From the IMG/VR virus record IMGVR_UViG_3300027894_000002, positions 1-52,775 of that record: a stretch of DNA of 52,775 nt. One strand, given 5' to 3'. The stretch is from a virus. Both the position numbers and the translations under genes were made by a program. The notes under the pieces were generated by a model that saw only the letters and a list, made by a program, of their open reading frames with translations, was not told the origin of the DNA and made no database searches. Within the stretch, counting starts at the first letter, position 1. Every line of letters begins with the position of its first letter. This document shows positions 3,378-51,464 of this stretch, piece by piece.

Positions 3378-3583
3378 CCGCGCAGATCTACGTTAAGCCG
3401 CGAACGCGGATCTGGATGCGGTCATGCGATGGCGCGCTGCCTTCGGTGACGCCGTGCTGGAAAAACAAAGTGTACGCCTATGCGCTACAATGTTTTTGGG
3501 TCGCCGCTGGCCCCGATCGTCAGCGCTATTGGGACTATCTGCCCTATGCCGACAATGACGGCGATCCGATGGGGTGCATGTGA
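3374..3583 (+). CDS. Hypothetical protein (69 aa)
   Basis: 69 residues, rich in Trp/Tyr/Cys (W14, W29, W42, W53), with ATGA and GTGA overlaps to its neighbours. The composition resembles small beta-rich phage proteins. No family recognised. Position immediately before the primase suggests co-translation with it. Confidence 0.6.
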   Translation: MTAQIYVKPRTRIWMRSCDGALPSVTPCWKNKVYAYALQCFWVAAGPDRQRYWDYLPYADNDGDPMGCM

Positions 3584-6423
3584 CGTCAGCGCGTATCACC
3601 GAAGCCGAGCTCGAGGATCTAAAGCAGCGCAATCCGTGCGATGTGGTCGCTGGCGCTTGGGTCAGCTTGCGCCGGCACGGCCAGAAGATGATCGGGCCGT
3701 GCCCGCTGCATTCGCCGGATCCGCACGCGCGGGATTCAACGAGCTTTGAATGCGACGCCGATGGCTGGGTCTGTGCCACATGCGCCGATGGCGGCGACGT
3801 CATCAAGCTGGTGGCGCTGCGCGAGAACCTCGACCCGCAAAAGGACTTCCGCAAGGTCATCGAAATCCTCGGCGGTAAACGCGAGCTGGTGCCGGGCGAG
3901 GCGGCGCTGGCCGACGCGCACCGCGCCGAGCTGCGCGCCCAGCGTGATCGCGAAAACCAGAACTACCGCGAACGCGAGCGGCAACGGCTGTGGCGGGATA
4001 TTTGGGCGCTGGCGATCGGCATCGCTAATACGCCGGCCGAGGCCTACCTGACCTTGCGCCAGGTGGTGGCGCCGGCGACCTCGCCGATGCGGCTCAAATA
4101 TCTCGCCAACTGTCCCATGTACGCGACCGGGTCGCCGGGCGCCAAGCCGGTGCACACAGGGCCGGCCTTGCTGGCGGCGATCGTCGGCGCCGACGGACGC
4201 TTTTGCGGTCTGCACATCACTTGGCTCGATCTCGATCGTCCGAAAGGCAAGGCCGAGATTGTGGATCCCGCCGGCGCCGTGCTTTTGCCGGCCAAGAAGG
4301 TGCGCGGTTCGAAGGCGGGCGGGCGCATTGAGCTCTTGCCGCGGTCGGCACCGCGGCGCCTGGTGATCGGCGAAGGCATCGAGAAGGTGCTCGCCGTCTT
4401 GAACGCGCACGAGCGCGGCGGCCGCGATATCGCCGACACGGCGTTCTGGTCGTGCGTCGATCTCGGCAACATGGGCGGCAAGGCGGCCGAGACGGTGCCG
4501 CACCCGACGCTGAAAGACGCCGCCAACCGCACCCGGCGCATACCCGGGCCACTGCCGGATCTGACAAAGCCCGGGCTTACCATTCCTGAATCCGTCGACG
4601 ACATCGTGCTGCTCGGCGACTCGACTTCCGATCGCTTCCTGACCGAATGCACGATCGCTCGCGCCGCGGCGCGCTTTGCCAAGCAAGGCCGCAATGTGCG
4701 CGTCGCCTGGGCACTGGCGGGCCAGGATTTTGACGAAACGCTCGGCGAGGAAGCTGGCGCCGACAAGATCCTGGCGATCATCGATGCCGCGGCGCCACCC
4801 GTGCCGATCGTCATGTCGACCCCCGCACCCCTGCAATCGCGTACACTTCGAAAGAAAGCCAAACCCTCCCAAATGGGAGGCGGTGCTGTAGAGCAGCCTG
4901 ACAAGGGGAGCGGGGGCGACGACGATCTTGACGAGCGGCTGGCCTTTTATCCGCAGACTGACTTGGGCAACGCCGAACGCTTCCGCGAGCGCAACGTCGG
5001 CAAGATCCTGTGGTGTCCGGCGCTCGGCTGGCTCGCCTGGGACGGCAAGCGCTGGTCGCGCGAGGCCGCCGAAGAGGCGGTCAAGATCGCCGAGCACAAG
5101 ACGGTGCGCGCGATCCAGAACGAGTCGAAGGCGGTCAAGGGCACCAAGCTCGACAAGCTTATGGGCTACGAGCGCGACGGCAAGCCGATCTATCTGTCCG
5201 ACAAGCTGAAAAAATGGGGCCGGGCCTCGGAAGCCGCCAACAAGTTGAACGCGATCTCGCGCCGCGCCGGGCCCTACATGCACATCGCGCCGTCGAAACT
5301 CGATGCCGACCGCTTCATGATCAACTGCAACAACGGCACCCTGGTGGTGCGGCGCAATCTGGACGGCGATTGCATTTCGTTCGTGCCGCACAACCCAGCC
5401 GACCTGATCACCAAGCTGATCCCGGTCGACTACGACCCGGCCGCGACCTGCCCGCATTACGATAAATTCCTGGCCGAGGTGCAGCCGCGCGACAGCGCCC
5501 GCATCTTCCTGCACCAATGGTTCGGCCTATCTCTGACCGGCGACACCACTGAGCAAAAGCTCTTGTTCCTGCACGGCAAGGGCAAGAACGGTAAGACCAC
5601 GCTGCTGCAGGTCATCGGCCACGTCGCCGGCGACTATTCCAAGGCACTGCCGATCGAGACGTTTCTCGACCAGGGCCGCGGCCGCAACGCTGGCCAGGCG
5701 ACGCCCGATCTCGCGATCCTGCCCGGCGTGCGTTACCTGCAGACGTCGGAACCGGAACGCGGGGCGAAACTCGCCGAGGCGCTGATCAAGCTGGCGACCG
5801 GCGGCGATCCGATCCAGGCGCGTCATCTGCAGCGCGACTATTTCGAGTTCATGCCGCAGTTCAAGCTGACCATGTCGGGCAACTACAAGCCCAAGATCGA
5901 GGGCACCGACGAGGGCATCTGGCGCCGCGTGGTGCTAGTGCCGTGGGAAGTCACGATCGAGAAGCCCGATAAGGAACTGCTCGGCAAACTGCGGCTCGAG
6001 GCCTCGGGTATTCTTAACAGGCTGCTGGACGGCCTCAGAGATTGGCTGGATCGCGGCCTGGTGCTGCCGGCAGAGGTGGTGCAGGCCACGCAAGAATTCC
6101 GCGCCGACAGCGATCCGATTGGCCGCTTTCTCGCCGCCTGCACCCGGGCCACGCCCGGCAGCCGTACCCAAGGCAGTGAACTGCACAAGGTCTTTCTGGC
6201 CTGGGCCAAAGCCAGCGGCGAGCGGGAATCGACCGTCACCTATTTCGGCCGTGCCTTAAGCGAGCGCGGCATCGCCTGGAAACATTCAAACGTCAACTGG
6301 TGGCTCGGCATCGAGCTCGTGAAAAGCGTCAACGACTTTGTCGATCACGAAGGCAATCCGCTGCGGCTGACCGATAAGCCGTCAACCGAAACGACAGTCA
6401 GAGAGGACGAATTCATCGGCTGA
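3580..6423 (+). CDS. DNA primase/SF3 helicase (CHC2-Toprim-D5 type)
   Basis: A 947-residue replication initiator combining primase and helicase. A CHC2-like zinc finger lies near residues 41-68 (C-P-L-H ... C-A-T-C). A Toprim-like segment with LVIGEGIE lies near 261-268. A D5-type N-terminal region covers roughly 430-620. A superfamily 3 helicase follows with Walker A GKGKNGKTT near 664-672. Such proteins prime and unwind at the replication origin of phages and P4-like elements. GTG 3580 gives the GTGA overlap seen throughout this operon; GTG 3574 is an alternative. No DNA polymerase gene is present, so elongation must use the host replisome. An iteron-like array follows directly downstream. 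Confidence 0.92.
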   Translation: MTSARITEAELEDLKQRNPCDVVAGAWVSLRRHGQKMIGPCPLHSPDPHARDSTSFECDADGWVCATCADGGDVIKLVALRENLDPQKDFRKVIEILGGKRELVPGEAALADAHRAELRAQRDRENQNYRERERQRLWRDIWALAIGIANTPAEAYLTLRQVVAPATSPMRLKYLANCPMYATGSPGAKPVHTGPALLAAIVGADGRFCGLHITWLDLDRPKGKAEIVDPAGAVLLPAKKVRGSKAGGRIELLPRSAPRRLVIGEGIEKVLAVLNAHERGGRDIADTAFWSCVDLGNMGGKAAETVPHPTLKDAANRTRRIPGPLPDLTKPGLTIPESVDDIVLLGDSTSDRFLTECTIARAAARFAKQGRNVRVAWALAGQDFDETLGEEAGADKILAIIDAAAPPVPIVMSTPAPLQSRTLRKKAKPSQMGGGAVEQPDKGSGGDDDLDERLAFYPQTDLGNAERFRERNVGKILWCPALGWLAWDGKRWSREAAEEAVKIAEHKTVRAIQNESKAVKGTKLDKLMGYERDGKPIYLSDKLKKWGRASEAANKLNAISRRAGPYMHIAPSKLDADRFMINCNNGTLVVRRNLDGDCISFVPHNPADLITKLIPVDYDPAATCPHYDKFLAEVQPRDSARIFLHQWFGLSLTGDTTEQKLLFLHGKGKNGKTTLLQVIGHVAGDYSKALPIETFLDQGRGRNAGQATPDLAILPGVRYLQTSEPERGAKLAEALIKLATGGDPIQARHLQRDYFEFMPQFKLTMSGNYKPKIEGTDEGIWRRVVLVPWEVTIEKPDKELLGKLRLEASGILNRLLDGLRDWLDRGLVLPAEVVQATQEFRADSDPIGRFLAACTRATPGSRTQGSELHKVFLAWAKASGERESTVTYFGRALSERGIAWKHSNVNWWLGIELVKSVNDFVDHEGNPLRLTDKPSTETTVREDEFIG

Positions 6424-6683
6424 ACTATCCCAACTATCCCAATTTGGGACAGTTAGCGATTTTTCTAAGTGCCTGATCGGTCAGGCAACGGGACAGTTCG
6501 GGATAGTTGGGACAGTTTTGCAGCAATGGACTCACATGCGCGCGTGTGTGTGAAGAACATAAGCAAATAACTATCCCAACTATCCCAAACTCTCCCGTCA
6601 ATTCAAAAAGTCCTTGGTTTTATTGGGCTTTTTGCATGCGGGACAGTAGCCGTGCGTTTTAAGAGTGGGACACAAACTATCCC
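6423..6683. repeat. Array of twelve 9-bp iteron-like repeats (candidate replication origin)
   Basis: Copies of AACTATCCC or close variants occur in both orientations. Top-strand AACTATCCC starts at 6423, 6432, 6569, 6578 and 6675, with a variant AACTCTCCC at 6588. Inverted copies GGGATAGTT or GGGACAGTT start at 6446, 6490, 6500 and 6509, with weaker copies at 6640 and 6667. Three pairs abut with no gap (6423/6432, 6500/6509, 6569/6578). The array lies in non-coding DNA immediately after the primase/helicase gene, the classic position of an iteron origin. It could instead be an operator cluster for a DNA-binding regulator. Confidence 0.7.
6604..6634 (+). terminator. Possible weak intrinsic terminator after the primase gene
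   Basis: caaaaagtcc / gggctttttg can form a 10-bp stem with one G-U pair around an 11-base loop, ending in five T. The G+C part of the stem is short, so it may be a weak or bidirectional terminator. It sits inside the repeat array. Confidence 0.4.
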
Positions 6684-6685
6684 GT

Positions 6686-6718
6686 CGATCACTGGTGGCA
6701 AATTGCCACCAGTGATCG
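6686..6718. promoter_or_regulatory. 33-bp near-perfect palindrome upstream of the NusG-like gene (candidate operator)
   Basis: Two 16-base arms (6686-6701 and 6703-6718, core CACTGGTGGC) around a single central base. It lies 20 bases before the start of the NusG-like gene and is not followed by a T-run, so it does not look like a terminator. A dimeric regulator site or an mRNA hairpin controlling translation are both possible. Confidence 0.6.
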
Positions 6719-6738
6719 CCAGCAAAAAGAGGTTGAGG

Positions 6739-7395
6739 ATGATGGACAAGCAAGCGGTTGCGCGTACCGCGCTGGTGGCGGCGGCGGAAGAGGACGAGCG
6801 GCACCATGCCCAGCAACGCGCCGAGAACGACGCGCTGCGATCGTGGCATCTGGTGCAGATATCGGCCAAGCAGTCGACACTGGCCAAACATCACCTCGAG
6901 CGCAGCGGCTACGGGTTTTATTATCCGCAGTTGCGCACGTTGTTCGTGCCGCCAGCGCGCAAGCTCTCGCGCGCCCAGCGCAAGATGCGCCACCTGATGG
7001 TGCGCGAGAAGATCGAACCGTTCTTCCCCGGCTACAGTTTCGTACGCTTCGACGTGCAGCGCGACCCTTGGCACGACATTTTCAAGCTGGTCGGCGTCTA
7101 TGGCATCGCCTGCGAGCAGAACATGCCGCGCGTCATGTCGGACGAATTCATTAGCCAGCTCAAAAACCGGGAGGTTAACGGTGCCATTCCGGGCGAGACG
7201 CCGGTCGAGGAAATATTCTTGCGTGTCGGCGATGAGGCGCGGTTTCACTCGGGCCCGCTCAGCGGGTTCACAGGCCGGGTTGACCATATAGACAGCAACG
7301 GGAGAATCAGATTACTACTGCCCCTGTTCGGAAGCGTTGAAACATTCCTAGACGAAGTCGACAAGGCACCAGCCACACACCTAGCCACGGGGTAG
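6739..7395 (+). CDS. NusG/RfaH-family transcription elongation factor (phage-encoded)
   Basis: 218 residues with the two-domain NusG plan. A charged N-terminal extension is followed by an NGN-like domain from about residue 36 (WHLVQIS), including the diagnostic FFPGYSFVRF at about 95-104. A KOW-containing C-terminal domain covers about 162-200 (R-V-G-D, then GFTGRV and a beta return). NusG proteins bind the RNA polymerase clamp helices. Specialised paralogues such as RfaH act at particular operons and suppress pausing and termination. The gene lies after the replication genes and before three consecutive terminators that guard the late genes, so a role as late-gene antiterminator is a reasonable inference. 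ATG 6739 has aagagg seven bases upstream; ATG 6742 is an alternative. Confidence 0.87.
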   Translation: MMDKQAVARTALVAAAEEDERHHAQQRAENDALRSWHLVQISAKQSTLAKHHLERSGYGFYYPQLRTLFVPPARKLSRAQRKMRHLMVREKIEPFFPGYSFVRFDVQRDPWHDIFKLVGVYGIACEQNMPRVMSDEFISQLKNREVNGAIPGETPVEEIFLRVGDEARFHSGPLSGFTGRVDHIDSNGRIRLLLPLFGSVETFLDEVDKAPATHLATG

Positions 7396-7431
7396 CCACC
7401 AGTTGGCCACTCTAATGGCTGCGCACGAGAG

Positions 7432-7458
7432 AAAGCCCGCCCATTGTGGCGGGCTTTT
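7432..7458 (+). terminator. Intrinsic terminator 1 (after NusG-like gene)
   Basis: aaagcccgcc / ggcgggcttt forms a 10-bp stem around a 6-base loop and is followed by a short T-run. It is a strong canonical Rho-independent terminator 36 bases after the NusG-like stop codon. Confidence 0.88.
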
Positions 7459-7462
7459 CGCG

Positions 7463-7474
7463 TCATAGGGTAGG
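7463..7474 (+). repeat. TCATAGGGTAGG direct repeat, copy 1
   Basis: Twelve bases beginning five bases after the T-run of terminator 1. The identical 12-mer recurs in the same place relative to terminator 2 (7619-7630). Function unknown; possible recognition or loading element. Confidence 0.6.
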
Positions 7475-7586
7475 GGCGTTGTCGAGAGCGGCGCCTCGAT
7501 GCGACACCCGCCATGTTACATGGCTAGGAGGGCAGCAAAGGAGCGCACGAGTACAGCGCTTGTTTGCACAATGGCTAGGGACGAAA

Positions 7587-7615
7587 GCCGGGCGCAGCGA
7601 TGCGTCCGGCTTTTT
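7587..7615 (+). terminator. Intrinsic terminator 2
   Basis: gccgggcgca / tgcgtccggc forms a 10-bp stem with one G-U pair and a gcga tetraloop, followed by five T. No protein-coding frame separates it from terminator 1, so it either ends a small RNA starting in 7459-7580 or backs up terminator 1. Confidence 0.88.
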
Positions 7616-7618
7616 CGT

Positions 7619-7630
7619 TCATAGGGTAGG
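7619..7630 (+). repeat. TCATAGGGTAGG direct repeat, copy 2
   Basis: Exact copy of 7463-7474, again a few bases after a terminator T-run. A second shared 9-mer, ATGGCTAGG, lies upstream of terminator 2 at 7520-7528 and 7571-7579. Confidence 0.6.
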
Positions 7631-7682
7631 ACCTGGCTGGTGATTGCTGGCCTTGTCTGTTTTCACGTTCTCCCTAAGCCTT

Positions 7683-7714
7683 GGACCGCTTGCCAACGCG
7701 CGCGGTCCTTTTTT
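7683..7714 (+). terminator. Intrinsic terminator 3 (entry to the late region)
   Basis: ggaccgc / gcggtcc forms a 7-bp stem around a 12-base loop, followed by six T. It sits only 18 bases before the first late-region start codon at 7733, so transcripts entering from upstream must read through it. About 335 bp (7396-7732) therefore hold three terminators and no protein gene. Confidence 0.85.
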
Positions 7715-7732
7715 CCCCGCGGGGCAAAGCCG

Positions 7733-7897
7733 ATGGCCGACGATGCGCCGATGAAGACCTATGTGCCGAGCAAGCGCGCCAAAGGCATGGAAGCCGGCGG
7801 GCGCATGCCCGTGAAAATGCCGATGAAGGGCAAAATGCCGCGCAAGGCGATGCGCAAGCGCATGACGATCGGCCACGGCGGCAGGCGAGGTTACTGA
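7733..7897 (+). CDS. Small basic Met/Lys-rich protein (54 aa)
   Basis: 54 residues, very basic, with six MP/MK/KM-type pairs in its middle and ending in TIGHGGRRGY. ATG 7733 is the only reasonable start after terminator 3, and its stop overlaps the next ATG as TGATG. A similar TIGHG ending occurs in the small protein at 22524-22703. Probably a DNA- or virion-associated small protein; function unknown. Confidence 0.6.
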   Translation: MADDAPMKTYVPSKRAKGMEAGGRMPVKMPMKGKMPRKAMRKRMTIGHGGRRGY

Positions 7898-8150: not shown

Positions 8151-8795
8151 ATGGCAAAAGAATTAACGCCGCGGCAAAAAATCTACTATCGCGAGCGTGC
8201 CGTCGGCGTCGGCCGGCTCGAGGCGCAGACCATTGCCGGTTACAAACCGGACAAGGGCAACGCCAAGCGGCTGGACCATCGGCCCGAGGGGCGCGCCTAC
8301 ATGCAGGAGATTGCGACCGAGGCCGCCGAGCTCGCCGGCGTGCACCTCGGTCGCGTGCTGCTCGAGCTGGCGCATATCGGCTACGCCAACATGGCGGACT
8401 ACACCAAGGCCGTCGACGGCATTGGTGGCAGAGGCGGCCGATTGGTCCATGATCTGTCGAATCTAACGCGCGAGCAGGCTGCGGCGATCAAGGAATATGC
8501 TTTCGACAGCAAGGGCAGGCCGAAGCTGACCTTGCACGACAAGCGCGCAGCGCTGGCCGATCTATTGAAATTCCTGGCGCCCGGTAAGGTTGGCGATGGC
8601 AATCAGCCGGCGCCGGATGTGATGAATTTCAATCTGATGCAGATCATCGCCAAGTTCGACGGCATGTCCGAGCTCGAGATTGCGCGCCGCATTGCCTTCG
8701 CCATGCAGGCCGGCAGCCGTCAGATCGACGGTCAAGCCAATCCGCCAACCCCGCCGCCGGCTGATCAGCCGGCCTCGCAAGGAGCGAGCCAATGA
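8151..8795 (+). CDS. terS: Terminase small subunit
   Basis: 214 residues. The N-terminal region (LTPRQKIYYRERAVGVGR, then QTIAGYKPDKGNAKRLDHRPEGRAY) is the helix-turn-helix DNA-recognition pattern of terminase small subunits. It is followed by a helical oligomerisation region and a Pro/Gln-rich tail. TerS recognises the packaging site and loads TerL. ATG 8151 is preferred; GTG 8106 is in frame but has no ribosome binding site. The large subunit follows two genes later. Confidence 0.82.
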   Translation: MAKELTPRQKIYYRERAVGVGRLEAQTIAGYKPDKGNAKRLDHRPEGRAYMQEIATEAAELAGVHLGRVLLELAHIGYANMADYTKAVDGIGGRGGRLVHDLSNLTREQAAAIKEYAFDSKGRPKLTLHDKRAALADLLKFLAPGKVGDGNQPAPDVMNFNLMQIIAKFDGMSELEIARRIAFAMQAGSRQIDGQANPPTPPPADQPASQGASQ

Positions 8796-9686: not shown

Positions 9687-11282
9687 GTGACGTTACTCGA
9701 CGACGTTCTCACTAGGCTGAACGAAAAGCCGCCGGCGGTTCGCGAACAAGCGATCGCCGGCGCGCTCAAGGCAACCGCGCATCTGCCCTGGGTGCCTAAT
9801 CCCGGGCCGCAAACGGAAGCGTTCTACTGCGAGGCCGACGAGTTGTTGTTCGGCGGCCAAGCCGGCGGCGGCAAGTCCGATCTGCTGCTAGGGCTGGGGC
9901 TGGCATCGCACCAGCAGTCGCTGATCCTGCGGCGCGTCAACGTCGACGTCGAGAAGGTTGGCGGGCTCGGGCCCCGTTTGGTGTCGATCCTCGGCAGTGC
10001 CGAGGGCTACAACGCGCAGAAGCACGTCTATAGCGCCGGCAGGCGGGAGATCGAGCTCGGCGGTTGCGAGCAAGAGAAAGACAAAGAACGCTACAAGGGC
10101 CGCCCACATGATCTGATCGGCTTTGACGAGCTGGCCGACTTCCTCGAGAGTCAATACCGTTTCATTATCGGCTGGAACCGATCGACCGATCCAAAGCAGC
10201 GCTGCCGCATCGTGGCGGCGTCCAATCCGCCGACCACGCCAGAAGGTCAATGGATCGTGCGGCGCTGGGCGCCCTGGCTCGACAAGAGCTATCCCAACCC
10301 GGCCAAGGACGGCGAGCTGCGCTGGTTTTTGACCATCAACGACAACGACATTCCGGTCGACGGGCCCGGCCCGCACCAGGTCGAAGGCCGCAAGAAGCCG
10401 GTGCGCGCTACTTCGCGCACCTTCATCCGCTCGACGCTCGAGGATAACCCGGATCTGACGCACGGCGATGGATCCTACGAGGCGCGGCTCGAGGGCCATA
10501 CCGAGGCGCTGCGGCGGGCCTATCGCGACGGCGACTTTTCGGTCGCGCTGCAGGACGACGAATGGCAGGTGTTTCCGGTCGGCTGGATCGAAGCGGCGAT
10601 GCAGCGCTGGCAGAACAAGCAGCCGAAAGGCGTGGCGCAGACCGCCATGGCGATCGATATCGCGCAAGGCGGCGACGACCAGACCGTGATTTCTTACCGT
10701 TATGGCGGCTGGTACGCGCCGCTTGACGTGACGCCAGGCTCCGAGACGCGTGAAGGTTATCAGGTGACGGCGCGCGTGGTGCGCTTTCGCCGTGATCGCT
10801 GTCCGGTCATTCCCGACATTGGCGGCGGCTTTGGCGCCGACGCGCTGGTGTCGATGAAAGAGAACGGCATTGCGGTCTACCCGCACAACGGCGTGCTGGC
10901 TTCGACCGCGCGATCGCAAGACGGTCAATACAAATTCAAGAACAAGCGCGCCGAGGTGCACTGGCGCTTTCGCGAGGCACTTAATCCCGAGCAGGAAGGC
11001 GGCAGCATCGTCGAGTTGCCGAACGATCCGCTGCTCAAGGCCGATCTGGCGTCGGTACATTACCAGCTGACGCGCGAGGGCATCCTGATTGAAGAAAAAA
11101 AGGCGATCAAGAAGCGCATCGGCCGCTCGCCCGATCGCGGCGATTCCGTGGTGATGTGCTGGGGCGAGGGCGAGAAAGCGGTTGCGCGTACCATTAGGAT
11201 CGCCCGCAACTCGGCGCGCAGTCAGCAAAACAACATCGGCTACGCCAAATTAAAACAAGGACCGGGCTATGGCGGGCGCTGA
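9687..11282 (+). CDS. terL: Terminase large subunit (packaging ATPase/nuclease)
   Basis: 531 residues. The ATPase domain has Walker A GGQAGGGKS at 56-64, Walker B LIGFDE at 143-148 and a coupling motif VAASNPP at about 176-182. The RNase H-like nuclease domain has acidic residues at D324 (AIDIA), D377 (PDIGGG) and D486 (SPDRGD). The enzyme drives DNA into the prohead and cuts the concatemer. Start is GTG 9687. The C-terminal segment NNIGYAKLK is matched by NIGYAHLK in the small protein at 11480-11782, and the 15-bp DNA behind it is identical. Confidence 0.95.
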   Translation: MTLLDDVLTRLNEKPPAVREQAIAGALKATAHLPWVPNPGPQTEAFYCEADELLFGGQAGGGKSDLLLGLGLASHQQSLILRRVNVDVEKVGGLGPRLVSILGSAEGYNAQKHVYSAGRREIELGGCEQEKDKERYKGRPHDLIGFDELADFLESQYRFIIGWNRSTDPKQRCRIVAASNPPTTPEGQWIVRRWAPWLDKSYPNPAKDGELRWFLTINDNDIPVDGPGPHQVEGRKKPVRATSRTFIRSTLEDNPDLTHGDGSYEARLEGHTEALRRAYRDGDFSVALQDDEWQVFPVGWIEAAMQRWQNKQPKGVAQTAMAIDIAQGGDDQTVISYRYGGWYAPLDVTPGSETREGYQVTARVVRFRRDRCPVIPDIGGGFGADALVSMKENGIAVYPHNGVLASTARSQDGQYKFKNKRAEVHWRFREALNPEQEGGSIVELPNDPLLKADLASVHYQLTREGILIEEKKAIKKRIGRSPDRGDSVVMCWGEGEKAVARTIRIARNSARSQQNNIGYAKLKQGPGYGGR

Positions 11283-45267: not shown

Positions 45268-45432
45268 TCAGCGGCGTTTTTTTCGTTTTCGAATCTCGGC
45301 GCTGAGCGTGGTAACCTTGTACTTCCGCGGCTTTTTGCGGCGGTCGCGAGGAAAAATCAGGACCTCGTCGCCGACCTCTAAGCCAAGCTTGGTGGGTGTC
45401 CAATTTGGTATCTTTTGACGTGTTTTTGTCAT
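45268..45432 (-). CDS. Small basic protein coupled to integrase (54 aa)
   Basis: 54 residues, very basic (KKPRKYKV ... RKRKKRR), with GLEVGDEVLIFPRD suggesting a small beta-barrel. Its ATG overlaps the integrase stop as ATGA, so it is translated with the integrase. It might be a DNA-binding accessory of recombination; this is inference from charge and position. Confidence 0.6.
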   Translation of the reverse strand: MTKTRQKIPNWTPTKLGLEVGDEVLIFPRDRRKKPRKYKVTTLSAEIRKRKKRR

Positions 45433-46493
45433 GCTCGCTCCTGTGCCACCCCGAACTTGGCAATGCGGGCCTCTTCGGGGGTAAGAAAATCGAGATAGAG
45501 CTCGGTCGTCTTGATTGATCGGTGACCGAGGCGAATCTGCAAGTCGTAAATGTTGCGGCCGGATTTGAGCCATTCGACGGCGTGCAGGTGGCGCAGCTGG
45601 TGCACGGTAAACGGCCTAAAATCCGGCGTACCGCCCGGGCCTGCCGCCTTGGTCGCCGCCTGGTGCTCGGCTGCGATAATGGCCGAAAACCGGCTCGACA
45701 GGTTGCGGTACGGCTCGCCCGCGCCATGCCAGAACAGCCACGGCTCGCCGAGGTAGGATGGCAGCGCCGCCAACAGCTCATAGCCGCCGAACGGATCGAG
45801 CTCGATCGCGCGCACCTTGTTGCCCTTGCCGCGCAGGGTCAGCTGGCGCCGGCCGTGGTCGAGCTGGGGCCGCTTGGCGTAGGCTAATTCGGTGAGCCGG
45901 CACCCGGTAGCCCGATAACCGCGCAGCAACGCGCCCAAGAGCCCCGGGGCGCGCGCAATAACCCTCCCGACATGGGAGGGTTCGGGAAGCACGATCGGAT
46001 CGCGGCGCTCGCGCAGCCGGCGCAGCCAAGACAGGGCCGGGTTACCCTCAGACCATTCCATGGCCTCGGCGTAGCCCAGCACGCTGGACAGGGCCGTGAG
46101 ATCCCGCCGGATGGTGGCGATGCTGACGCCGCTGGCCTGGCGGACCTTGACCAGGCTCGACACGGTCGTGGCGTTGATCTCGTCGAGGTAGAGCGGCCGC
46201 AGGACGCCCGCCAGCTGCTGCAGACTGACCGCGTAGCGTTTGGAGGTTTCCCCGCCCACTTGGCCAGCAATCCAGACCGCCCAGGCGGTGACCGCGGCTT
46301 CATAGGTCTGGCGCTTCTCCCCGAAATGCGTGGCCGCTAGTTCCTGCTCGCGGCGCTCTTTGCGCCGGCGTGCAGCAATCCGGCCATCGCTCGTTCGTAG
46401 GCTCCATCGGATCTCAGTGTCCTTGACCTTGAGGCGGCCATATAATGTCTCGCCGCGCCAGTAGCAGCCGAAAGGGGCTTTGCGTTTTGCCAT
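45429..46493 (-). CDS. int: Tyrosine-family site-specific integrase
   Basis: 354 residues. The N-terminal part (WRGETLYGRLKVKDTEIRWS) resembles the arm-binding region of Rhizobiales phage integrases, followed by a core-binding SAM-like domain at about 55-165. The catalytic residues are an arginine near 200 (GCRLTEL), a lysine in GKGNKVR, H298-x-x-R301 (HQLRH), H324 (LGHRS) and nucleophile Y333 (TTELYLDF). It catalyses integration between attP and a host tRNA-Ser gene. Starts at 46493; the xis-like gene overlaps its 5' end by 157 bp in another frame. Confidence 0.94.
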   Translation of the reverse strand: MAKRKAPFGCYWRGETLYGRLKVKDTEIRWSLRTSDGRIAARRRKERREQELAATHFGEKRQTYEAAVTAWAVWIAGQVGGETSKRYAVSLQQLAGVLRPLYLDEINATTVSSLVKVRQASGVSIATIRRDLTALSSVLGYAEAMEWSEGNPALSWLRRLRERRDPIVLPEPSHVGRVIARAPGLLGALLRGYRATGCRLTELAYAKRPQLDHGRRQLTLRGKGNKVRAIELDPFGGYELLAALPSYLGEPWLFWHGAGEPYRNLSSRFSAIIAAEHQAATKAAGPGGTPDFRPFTVHQLRHLHAVEWLKSGRNIYDLQIRLGHRSIKTTELYLDFLTPEEARIAKFGVAQERA

Positions 46494-48081: not shown

Positions 48082-48726
48082 TTAGTCGCCGGTATCCGGC
48101 CGCGTCCGGCGCCGCGAAATCCGGTCGGTCACAACCCCTCGTATCATAACCGATTTATCGTCAACCAATAGGGGCAATGACGGGCTGCGATCGAGCCCGG
48201 CGGTAAGTAGGTAAGGCTTTTGGTAAACGCGGAACACGGGATGCCGGGTGCCCGTAGTGGCATCGGCGACCTCGGCGCAGACCACGTCGCCGTCGGCGGG
48301 CGGCTCGTGCGGATCGACCAGCACCAGATCGCCGCGCAGGAAGCCAGCAGCCTCAAGGGCGGTGCCGGCAAGCTCCCAGGTCTGGATAGCCCGGCGATTG
48401 CCGATTAACGCAGCCAGCGCCGCCGCTACGGCAGGCACGATGACCTCGGGGTCGACCAGCAATCCCTCGAGCATTACAGATCCCTGACCTTTGGTTCCGA
48501 AGGCCCGCGTTCGCGGTGCCTGCTGCCCAAAGTAGCGTTCTAACTTTGCGATCGTAGGGGTTGAAGGCGTAAACTTATATTTATCGTCGTTGAGAAAATT
48601 GGTCAGCGTTGTTGTCGCAATTTTGGTTTCGCGCGCCGCGCGCGTGGGGCTGAGCCCTCGATTTGCTAGGTTTTGCCGTAGCCAAGCCTTCAAGGCCTCG
48701 CGATCGGCCGCTGTTTCGTCCGCCAT
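48082..48726 (-). CDS. cI-like repressor with S24-like C-terminal domain
   Basis: 214 residues. An N-terminal helix-turn-helix (about 18-60: LSPTRAARETKIATTTLTNF) and a C-terminal beta-rich domain with FLRGDLVLVDPHEPPADGDV, the LexA/UmuD-like S24 fold. The position where the catalytic serine should precede the D-L-V-L-V-D strand reads EAAGF, with no serine, and no clear catalytic lysine follows. It may therefore be non-cleavable. Start ATG 48726 is preferred; a longer frame reaches 48840 across the control region. It faces the Cro-like gene, as in a lambda-type switch. Confidence 0.82.
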   Translation of the reverse strand: MADETAADREALKAWLRQNLANRGLSPTRAARETKIATTTLTNFLNDDKYKFTPSTPTIAKLERYFGQQAPRTRAFGTKGQGSVMLEGLLVDPEVIVPAVAAALAALIGNRRAIQTWELAGTALEAAGFLRGDLVLVDPHEPPADGDVVCAEVADATTGTRHPVFRVYQKPYLLTAGLDRSPSLPLLVDDKSVMIRGVVTDRISRRRTRPDTGD

Positions 48727-48842
48727 GCACAGCCTCGCTGTCGCTTGTACGCGACAGCTAGTTTGCGCTTGTGGATTGCTGACTACATCTAGCATTAAAG
48801 CACTTGACGCAACTGCACGACTCTGATTCTGCTGTAGCATTA
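48727..48842. promoter_or_regulatory. Divergent lysis/lysogeny control region
   Basis: 116 bp between the cI-like and Cro-like genes. It contains the inverted repeat at 48737-48758, a -35-like ttgacg at 48804-48809 reading toward the Cro-like gene with a weak -10 (gattct) at 48825-48830, and a 9-bp direct repeat TAGCATTAA at 48790-48798 and 48835-48843. The second copy overlaps the Cro-like ATG. Confidence 0.75.
48737..48758. promoter_or_regulatory. Operator-like inverted repeat
   Basis: GCTGTCGC (48737-48744) and GCGACAGC (48751-48758) are perfect 8-bp arms separated by ttgtac. It lies 11 bases upstream of the cI-like start, in the position expected for an auto-regulatory repressor site. 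Confidence 0.72.
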
Positions 48843-49387: not shown

Positions 49388-49743
49388 GCAACCGAGAAAG
49401 GATCGTGGCGATCCTGTCCGACACGATCGGCGTTGCCGAGACGGTTACCAAGCGGCCGCCGTCGCACGACCGCCTGCCGCGGCTGGCGATGCTGGCCGTT
49501 GAGATCGACGAGGCCTCGACCTGGCTCGTCGAGGGTGGAAATCCGATCGGGCCCGAAGCGGCGATGTTGATCGAGGTGCTAATGCACATCGAGAAGGAAC
49601 GTGCGGCTGGCGACGGCGATCGCGTCACGAAATGGCTGGCGATCGCCGGCGCGCTGCTGCCGATGGTGCGCAACAATGGGGCCGATGCGATGGGTCTAGC
49701 CGATGCGCGACCAGCGACTAGCAGCGTCGGGAGGAACGGGTGA
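49384..49743 (+). CDS. Hypothetical early protein (119 aa)
   Basis: 119 residues, helical, with LPRLAMLAVEIDEASTWLV and HIEKERAAGDGDRVTKWL. The composition and position match short early proteins of rhizobial phages without known function. ATGA and GTGA overlaps to both neighbours. Confidence 0.65.
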   Translation: MSNRERIVAILSDTIGVAETVTKRPPSHDRLPRLAMLAVEIDEASTWLVEGGNPIGPEAAMLIEVLMHIEKERAAGDGDRVTKWLAIAGALLPMVRNNGADAMGLADARPATSSVGRNG

Positions 49744-51464
49744 GTAAAGCGCCGAAGAGCAAGACCAAGCCGTGCCTCGAGCGCAAGCAAAAGGGCACGT
49801 TGTCGCTCCGACGCTACAGCAAAAAGCGCGGCGGTTACGGCGTGCAGACCAAGACCGGCACCTATCGCGGCATCGGCGGTCCGATGACAATCCATCCGGG
49901 CGAGGATCTGCGCGCCGCCGCGATCCGCACGCTCGGGCAAGCTACGCGCAAGCTATCCGACATCAAGGTCGGCAAGCGCCATCGCAAGGACTACGGCGAT
50001 CTCAAAGCATTGGCGCGCTCGATCGATGCGCGTGGGCTGCTGCAGCCGATCGTTATCACGCCGCAGAATAAATTGATCGCCGGCGATCGGCGCATGCGCG
50101 CCTGGCCGCTGACCAAATTTGCCAAGACGCCAATCCCGGTGACCGTCGTCGATATCGACAGCATCGTCGCCGGCGAATGGGACGAGAACGCCATCCGCAA
50201 GGACTTCACGCCGTCGGAAGCGGTCGCCATCAAACGCGAGCTCGAGCCGGCGCTCAAGGCCGAGGCCAAGCGCCGCCAGCAACAGCATGGCGGCACGACG
50301 CGCGGCCGTAAGGCTGCGGCAACCGAAGGCGCCGGCAAGTCGCGCGACAAGGTCGCGGCTTACGTCGGCAAGCGCGCCCGCTCGCTGGCCAAGGCCGAAG
50401 ACATTGTCGAGGCGGCCGAAGCCGACCCCAAGAAATTCGGCAAACTGAAAGCCGACATGGATCGCACGGGCCGCGTCAACGGCCCGCACAAGCGCCTGCA
50501 GATTATGAAACAGGCCGAGCAAATCAGGAAAGCCCCGCCGGGCGTGCCGATGAAGGGGCCTTACGGCGTGGTGGTGATCGATTTTCCATGGCCGAACGAG
50601 CCCGGCATGTCGCAGGAAGAGCTCGACGCACGCGGCCGCAGCTTGCGGCCTTATCCGGCCATGTCGATCAAGTCCGGTTGCGCCTTCATGCGCGACAAGG
50701 TACGCAAGATCCTGGCGAAAGACTGTTTCGTTTATTTCTGGGCGACGAATTTTCACGCGCCCTATGCCTGGCACCTGTTGGCTGCGCTTGGCTTCAAGAA
50801 GCATTCAACGATCGGCTGCTGGCGCAAGCACAAGATGGGGCGCGGCCAGGTGCTGCGCGACAAGACCGAGCTCTGCATCATCGCGATCAAGGGCAAGCCG
50901 GTCATCAACCTGACCAACCAGACGACCGACTGGTCGGGCCCTGGCTGGGAGCGGCGCGACAATTCGCAAAAGCCGGTCGCGTTCTACGAGCTGGTCGAAG
51001 AGCTGACGCCGGCGCCGCGCTATGCGGAAATTTTTTCGCGCGGCGGCCGCAATTCAAAATGGGACTGCCACGGCGACGAGATCGGCAAATATCCGCCGGG
51101 CTATGAGGTGCCACTGCTGCCGATGCCGATCGCCGAGTCGCCGGCGCGGCCCGCGGACGATTTTCCGTGGCCGGTCGACAAGCGCGGCAACAGCTGGCCA
51201 AGCGAGAATGGTCACACTGTCTCGATGACGAGCGAGCCGGGGACCGGCAATGATATCAGCAAGCATGTCGGCACTTGCGAATGCGGCCAGAAATGGAGCG
51301 TGCCGCACGGCAAGATGCGCGATCTCGATCTGATCATCGGTGAGCATTGGCTGGCGGAATATTACAAAGCGAAAGGCGCGCCCGCGCCTGCCGCGATCAA
51401 AGGCGTCGATGGCGCGCAGCTCGATCTCGTCGACGCCAGTCACAACCAGCAGGCCGCCGAATGA
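49740..51464 (+). CDS. ParB-like nuclease/MT-A70 adenine methyltransferase fusion
   Basis: 574 residues from GTG 49740. The N-terminal part has a basic region (1-70) and a ParB/Srx-like domain at about 73-140 with LARSIDARGLLQPIVI and the GDRRMRAWPL box. A basic helical linker follows (about 165-225). The C-terminal half is an MT-A70-type methyltransferase with catalytic motif D281-F-P-W284 (usual form DPPW), CFVYFWATNFHAPYAWHLL and ELCIIAIKGKPV. Such phage enzymes N6-methylate adenine, often to evade restriction. A Cys-containing tail (ECGQKWSVPHG) ends the protein. Confidence 0.86.
   Translation: MSKAPKSKTKPCLERKQKGTLSLRRYSKKRGGYGVQTKTGTYRGIGGPMTIHPGEDLRAAAIRTLGQATRKLSDIKVGKRHRKDYGDLKALARSIDARGLLQPIVITPQNKLIAGDRRMRAWPLTKFAKTPIPVTVVDIDSIVAGEWDENAIRKDFTPSEAVAIKRELEPALKAEAKRRQQQHGGTTRGRKAAATEGAGKSRDKVAAYVGKRARSLAKAEDIVEAAEADPKKFGKLKADMDRTGRVNGPHKRLQIMKQAEQIRKAPPGVPMKGPYGVVVIDFPWPNEPGMSQEELDARGRSLRPYPAMSIKSGCAFMRDKVRKILAKDCFVYFWATNFHAPYAWHLLAALGFKKHSTIGCWRKHKMGRGQVLRDKTELCIIAIKGKPVINLTNQTTDWSGPGWERRDNSQKPVAFYELVEELTPAPRYAEIFSRGGRNSKWDCHGDEIGKYPPGYEVPLLPMPIAESPARPADDFPWPVDKRGNSWPSENGHTVSMTSEPGTGNDISKHVGTCECGQKWSVPHGKMRDLDLIIGEHWLAEYYKAKGAPAPAAIKGVDGAQLDLVDASHNQQAAE

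Follow-up and report, generated by a model that had tools for sequence, protein, structure and literature searches.

LoaP, a NusG paralogue of Bacillus velezensis, needs a leader hairpin ahead of an intrinsic terminator (PMC12691694), and RfaH-like genes of prophages have been mentioned in passing (PMC7593976). In lambdoid systems the StxS sRNA, located between pR' and tR', provides a precedent for a short terminated transcript from a late promoter (PMC7873438). For phiLM21-like prophages, a "transcription antiterminator" together with an HNH gene has been reported where the early region ends (PMC12429752). Finally, the alphaR8 RNAs of Sinorhizobium and Caulobacter are Hfq-bound regulators that act in trans (PMC12559287, PMC7143759).

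The stretch of DNA analysed here (the window) comprises 52,775 bases of a virus record and is read as a temperate phage from soil. To our knowledge, the control of late genes is unknown in most non-lambdoid temperate phages, and the arrangement found in the window points to a little-studied switch in which late genes would be turned on by ignoring stop signals. The integrase (45429-46493) and a UmuD/repressor-like ORF (48082-48840) are located on the minus strand. A primase-helicase (3574-6423) precedes the region of interest, which is followed on the plus strand by the small (8151-8795; phrog_51, 9.5e-6) and large (9687-11282; phrog_979, 9.3e-37) terminase subunits; capsid, connector and tail genes are also present. 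No RNA polymerase gene was found among the 30 ORFs scanned in the window, with small ORFs covered in part, in agreement with an initial interpretation made from the letters alone (the sequence-only reading), which had stated that the phage carries none. A DNA-level search of named phages with the window region gave no match. An ORF of 574 aa at 49740-51464 resembles a fusion, with matches to a ParB-like nuclease and a DNA methyltransferase. In the gap between the primase and nusG (6423-6720) the motifs AACTATCCCAACTATCCCAA and TTGGGACAGTT are repeated in direct and inverted copies with 30-nt arms at 90%, and a perfect inverted repeat of 16 nt is found at 6686-6718; these repeats may represent a replication origin or an operator.

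The gene P0001 (6739-7395, plus strand; ATG at 6739, stop at 7393-7395) encodes a protein of 218 aa. It matched the Pfam NusG profile (5.1e-11) and PHROG 6386, annotated as "transcription antiterminator" (8.9e-11), while the Pfam KOW match (0.15) remained below the cut-off. The best family score was obtained for NCBIfam RfaH (TIGR01955; 1.5e-16), although its 60.8 bits are far from the equivalog cut-off of 144.5, and LoaP (NF033641) was likewise below its cut-off (27.4 against 125 bits). An AF2 model built on 28 homologues (pLDDT 89.1) predicted an NGN domain, a KOW domain folded as a five-stranded beta-barrel, and a long N-terminal helix. In superpositions of the NGN domain RfaH was nearest (Z 13.5 and 13.2), followed by NusG (about 10), and residues 160-212 of the model superposed on KOW domains with an rmsd of 1.1-1.5. 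The KOW domain is thus modelled in its beta form, with which an RfaH-type fold switch would remain compatible. Given the NGN and KOW domains recognised in this model, P0001 is a bacterial NusG paralogue of the NusG/Spt5 superfamily, and the complete NGN-KOW protein that had been described from the sequence was recovered, its nearest folds being RfaH and NusG. The ops element, with up to two mismatches, occurred 11 times in the window compared to 9.0 expected, and none of these matches was within the leader. One ops-like recruitment candidate, GCGGTAGCG after TAGGGT in two relatives (L003 and L014), was rejected, as it forms the 5' arm of the hairpin of alphaR8 and occurs in host copies as well. 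A NusG paralogue of Bradyrhizobium phage ppBeUSDA76-1 (L137; OP596613.1, 15032-15709) has been misannotated as "ABC transporter substrate-binding protein".

Three intrinsic terminators follow P0001 on the plus strand, at 7431-7459 (-19.9 kcal/mol, z -4.0), 7583-7615 (-25.2 kcal/mol, z -5.9) and 7683-7714 (-17.5 kcal/mol, z -4.0), the z-scores being calculated from the fold energy against shuffled sequence. A generic terminator scanner, whose rule is a simple consensus of tail and loop, listed none of the three; the z-scores against shuffles and the conservation among relatives carry more weight as evidence. The first late ORF (7733-7897, plus strand), a basic protein of 54 aa for which no family match or homologue was found, starts 18 nt past the last T-run, as had been noted before, and its frame is open as far back as a GTG at 7640. 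With folds 4.0 to 5.9 SD below the shuffles, and with the fold and family of P0001, the observation of a NusG paralogue separated from the terminase operon by three terminators was therefore correct. A further claim, that polymerase arriving from the early side must pass all three terminators, is not supported, because terminators 1 and 2 are both followed by TAGGGT, the -10 candidate of alphaR8 RNA in host chromosomes. The first motif lies within a copy of CATAGGGTAGG directly after terminator 1 (7464-7474, plus strand), and the second (TAGGGT at 7622-7627) within another copy at 7620-7630 (plus strand), as the putative -10 of an alphaR8-like RNA. No -35 box was found before this second copy in the window; a role of TAGGGT as -10 element is plausible, with TTGACA-16-TAGGGT present in L069. 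The sequence-only reading thus described the protein and the terminators well, and it overlooked the two TAGGGT motifs, this alphaR8-like RNA and an array of AGCCAC boxes treated below.

The stretch separating terminators 1 and 2 (7475-7582, plus strand) has no significant fold (z -0.9). It contains AGGAGGGCAGC (7524-7536), which over 11 nt is exactly complementary to the usual host alphaR8 sequence GCTGCCCTCCT. A sponge RNA against alphaR8 at this position was considered and set aside, as the complementarity extends to 10 nt in L137 and 11 nt in the window and is at chance level in nearly all other loci; for AGGAGGGCAGC itself, a sponge or a coincidence are both possible. Start-stop mini-ORFs, consisting of a Shine-Dalgarno sequence and an ATG followed by a stop at once or one codon later (e.g. 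GGAGTTCGGCCATGTAA), were observed in nine of 20 mid-size intervals between terminators 1 and 2 (L035, L059, L061, L028, L092, L052, L016, L032 and L137), compared to a chance of about 0.03 each, and are indistinct in the window itself.

The alphaR8/MmgR (suhB)-like RNA of the leader (7622-7724, plus strand) consists of a 5' hairpin (7629-7658), a core (7667-7675) and a terminator. A covariance model (R1), trained on 32 relatives with the window excluded, gave a match at 7622-7724 (27.9 bits, E 8.5e-5), while its second-best match scored 10.6 bits. Rfam at gathering thresholds gave no match in the window, where suhB (RF00519) scored 19.7 bits, below its gathering value of 41; the top-ranked Rfam entry for the leader was a plant microRNA (E 0.08), taken as chance. 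On test loci the same suhB/MmgR model of the alphaR8 family scored 42-63 bits, and its gathering value was passed by phage loci including L014, L001, L020, L058, L082, L092 and L137. The order of 5' hairpin, unpaired core and terminator was found in the window both in the fold of 7628-7716 and in the R1 match, the core being degenerate (GUUCUCCCU in place of UUUCCUCCCU). The host-like 5' hairpin and the UUUCCUCCCU core are kept in most phages, while in the window, L104, L113 and L131 the core has decayed and the layout of hairpin and terminator persists. As the matching model was derived from relatives only, terminator 3 is, by this sequence evidence, where a divergent alphaR8-like small RNA or leader has its 3' end, and not the bare terminator for which it had been taken. 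In L014, one of the phages carrying both nusG and this RNA, positions 2163-2315 matched the Rfam Phage_DGR family (diversity-generating retroelement RNA) with 75 bits.

The first IMG/VR relatives identified (L001-L003 and L014), 33-35% identical, show the same layout as the window: nusG is followed by one or two terminators, each with the -10-like CATAGGGT, intact or degraded, behind it, and further 3' by a GGGCGTTTCCTCCC stretch, the last terminator and late ORFs of small size. Dozens of phages share the succession of nusG, terminator, TAGGGT, alphaR8-like RNA, its terminator and a start codon. A DNA pattern of the element that required TAGGGT and CGTTTCCTCCC identified 46 loci in viruses and 32 in genomes, the majority from Bradyrhizobium and other Hyphomicrobiales; the conservation of the two motifs among these loci is built in, because the pattern demanded both. 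A scan of genome contigs with patterns from alignment A1, which were too specific, gave no match. According to iterated HMM searches, 38 of the 46 viral loci have a NusG homologue upstream of the element, and six of the remaining eight are cut within 420 nt; counted over loci with sufficient upstream sequence, the share is 38 of 40. The converse search, which started from the NusG protein alone and was free of the motif requirement, yielded 40 loci, and in 35 of them (30 at E<1e-8) the element lies on the same strand, downstream of nusG. Some exceptions (L100, L111, L126, L128) have unrelated or degraded sequence after nusG, and no element accompanies the NusG paralogues of three plasmid loci, most of which lie beside polysaccharide genes; a tblastn search of phages with the NusG of L074 gave no match. 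The first long ORF downstream is often a terminase, belonging to several PHROG families. Between pairs of NusG proteins linked to alphaR8 the median identity is 21%, and this gene order is retained in about a hundred related phages despite diverged NusG proteins and leader RNAs.

Phage and chromosomal copies of the element differ in their surroundings. In 44 of 45 NusG-linked elements a terminator ends 6-19 nt ahead of TAGGGT, and chromosomal copies have neither NusG nor a hairpin before this motif. An ORF of at least 50 aa starting with ATG within 30 nt past the last terminator was found for 29 of the 46 phage copies, at a median distance of 13 nt, and for none of 16 chromosomal ones (Fisher 4.5e-6), compared to 22% of random positions; the pattern is missing in the other 17 phage copies. 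The U-tract is weaker in phages (4.8 against 6.3 T of 8, p 4e-5). Host copies can have TTGACA-16-TAGGGT, as in L069, whereas no -35 box was found in the phage copies (2.09 matches, below the 2.64 of random sequence), because the arm of the terminator occupies its place. The distance from the last hairpin to the late start codon, often 7-26 nt, is too short to hold a promoter, and the first late gene would therefore need read-through of that terminator. This spacing is the strongest argument for a read-through, regulated or leaky, and it does not depend on the NusG protein.

Different clades appear to carry different elements in the leader. In the window, four (A/G)GCCAC boxes 11-12 nt apart (7371-7410) overlap the end of nusG and are followed by a TGC-GC-GCA motif (whole array 7371-7426, plus strand). 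This is the only chain of four in the window on both strands, and 30 shuffles of the whole window reached at most three. The boxes and TGC-GC-GCA are common to L001, L003, L014, L052 and L058, with shorter forms in L002 and L092, and no UNCG was found at 7371-7430 of the window. In several Bradyrhizobium loci (9/45) a GACGCGCGAAGCGTC-type hairpin is found instead. Sinorhizobium phage phi3LM21 and Agrobacterium phage Rivra, both with annotated NusG genes, have an unrelated RNA at the leader position, of the form CCCUGACAG-YCUC...GAGR-CACCGAUUCAGGG-CCAGUGC-N-A-AGCUAUG with UCAGGG inside, which gave no Rfam match at E 0.1. A pattern drawn from these two NusG-linked phages, in which NusG was not required, identified 53 IMG/VR loci (the RNA being located in L142-L194, at L139:4124-4195 and at L140:4061-4132), and NusG was present 64-128 nt upstream in all 50 loci with upstream sequence, both phages included. 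A terminator and an ATG follow in most loci. In the inner stem one pair covaries (17:17, C-G versus U-A), the remainder being nearly invariant, and the NusG proteins of these loci have a median identity of 32% (minimum 19%). Different leader RNAs occupy a single position between NusG and terminator, which speaks for an action in cis guided by the leader, as for LoaP.

Based on these observations, we consider it probable, though far from certain, that this phage relies for its late operon on antitermination by a NusG paralogue guided by the leader. The intrinsic terminators of the leader would hold off the late operon for packaging and head, and the NusG paralogue encoded just upstream would be its dedicated antiterminator, recruited while polymerase transcribes the leader beside nusG. 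The recruitment site would probably be the AGCCAC array with TGC-GC-GCA in the clade of the window and other conserved hairpins in other clades. Remaining on the polymerase, the paralogue would carry it past the terminators, chiefly the one directly ahead of the first late start codon. Transcription could begin at TAGGGT, in which case the alphaR8-like RNA would be the short terminated product of a pR'-like late promoter and its read-through the late mRNA; it could also enter by read-through from the early operon, as originally proposed. The binding of the protein to polymerase, its recruitment by leader elements, the suppression of terminators and the early-to-late role are all inferred. For the proposal that a specialised NusG serves the late operon, the order conserved in both search directions, the ATG abutting the terminator in relatives and the clade-specific leader RNAs are strong comparative support, yet an early/late module boundary alone could preserve such an order, transcription could start at TAGGGT downstream of terminators 1 and 2, the late ORF1 of the window lacks a homologue in a frame open from 7640, and 17 of the 46 phage copies do not have the abutting ATG. 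A broader interpretation, which we offer only tentatively, is that temperate Hyphomicrobiales phages share a family of such late-gene switches, with an own cis element per NusG clade (AGCCAC boxes, a CCUGA-UCAGG hairpin RNA outside the Rfam families, or GACGCGCGAAGCGUC hairpins), and that many have recruited host alphaR8 as leader, its premature end being the off state and its read-through the late mRNA.

Other explanations were also considered. The alphaR8-like element could be a free-standing sRNA acting in trans, mimicking MmgR/SisA and adjusting host mRNAs, with its terminator an ordinary sRNA end, late expression due to leakage or to other promoters, and the NusG acting elsewhere. That suhB scores above gathering in several phage loci, that most phages keep the host-like hairpin and UUUCCUCCCU core and that alphaR8 RNAs are Hfq-bound trans regulators (PMC12559287) would fit this explanation, which we regard as unlikely nonetheless: the layout persists where the core is degenerate (the window, L104, L113, L131), start codons abut the terminator in phages and not in host copies, and an unrelated RNA occupies the same place in other NusG phages. 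It is rather improbable that the terminators merely insulate early from late genes, with a TAGGGT promoter after terminator 2 driving the latter through a leaky terminator 3 and no antiterminator involved. The TAGGGT motifs behind terminators 1 and 2, the TTGACA-16-TAGGGT arrangement of the host copy L069 and the weak phage U-tracts are in line with such a promoter, but phage copies lack the -35 box, and the close association with NusG, seen from either search direction, would be left unexplained. The paralogue might also act in the opposite direction, strengthening pausing or termination in the leader after its own gene as a feedback attenuator. Its gene is placed in cis immediately ahead of the terminators, and in some bacteria the housekeeping NusG is able to promote pausing or termination by Rho. 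As the fold and family scores lean to RfaH, a known antiterminator, and the first late ORF needs read-through, we consider repression highly improbable.

Should the preferred reading of a leader-guided late antiterminator prove true, a late switch of phages would have arisen from NusG, a universal elongation factor; each clade of the protein would have its own matching cis element next to it, and a regulatory small RNA of the host would have become part of a phage leader. This can be tested in existing isolates, namely Agrobacterium phage Rivra on EHA105, Sinorhizobium phi3LM21, and the prophages of Bradyrhizobium USDA 76 and USDA 122. No description of the nusG/alphaR8 leader arrangement was found in the open-access literature, although a 2016 phylogeny of alphaR8 may mention prophage copies. 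Antitermination by NusG paralogues is known; the use as a phage late switch, the leader RNAs and the co-opted host small RNA would be new.

Among the described systems, LoaP shares with this locus a NusG paralogue, a conserved leader RNA hairpin, an intrinsic terminator and a long operon. It differs in acting on antibiotic operons of Firmicutes, compared to the proposed phage late operon of P0001 (27.4 bits against 125), and in its UNCG leader hairpin, in place of which the window has the AGCCAC array. RfaH and the RfaH-like proteins of plasmids and prophages are nearest to P0001 in family score and NGN fold, but P0001 is far below the RfaH cut-off, shows no ops enrichment and has a KOW domain predicted as beta-barrel. 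As in the lambdoid Q/pR'/tR' system with StxS, an antiterminator gene lies upstream of a leader, the short terminated transcript of which can be an sRNA, and late genes follow; Q, however, is unrelated to NusG and binds a DNA element of the promoter (PMC7171158), while a transcription start within the phage leader is here putative. The alphaR8/suhB sRNAs MmgR and SisA-D (RF00519; PMC12559287, PMC7143759) share the 5' hairpin, the CUCC-rich single strand, the terminator and the preceding TAGGGT, whereas the copy in the window has 19.7 bits (gathering 41) and a degenerate core, and the phage copies are located between nusG and the late operon. GafZ of the Caulobacter gene transfer agent (PMC11150451) likewise is a dedicated antiterminator for an alphaproteobacterial phage-like structural cluster behind terminators; it is not a NusG paralogue, and it loads at the promoter together with GafY and IHF.
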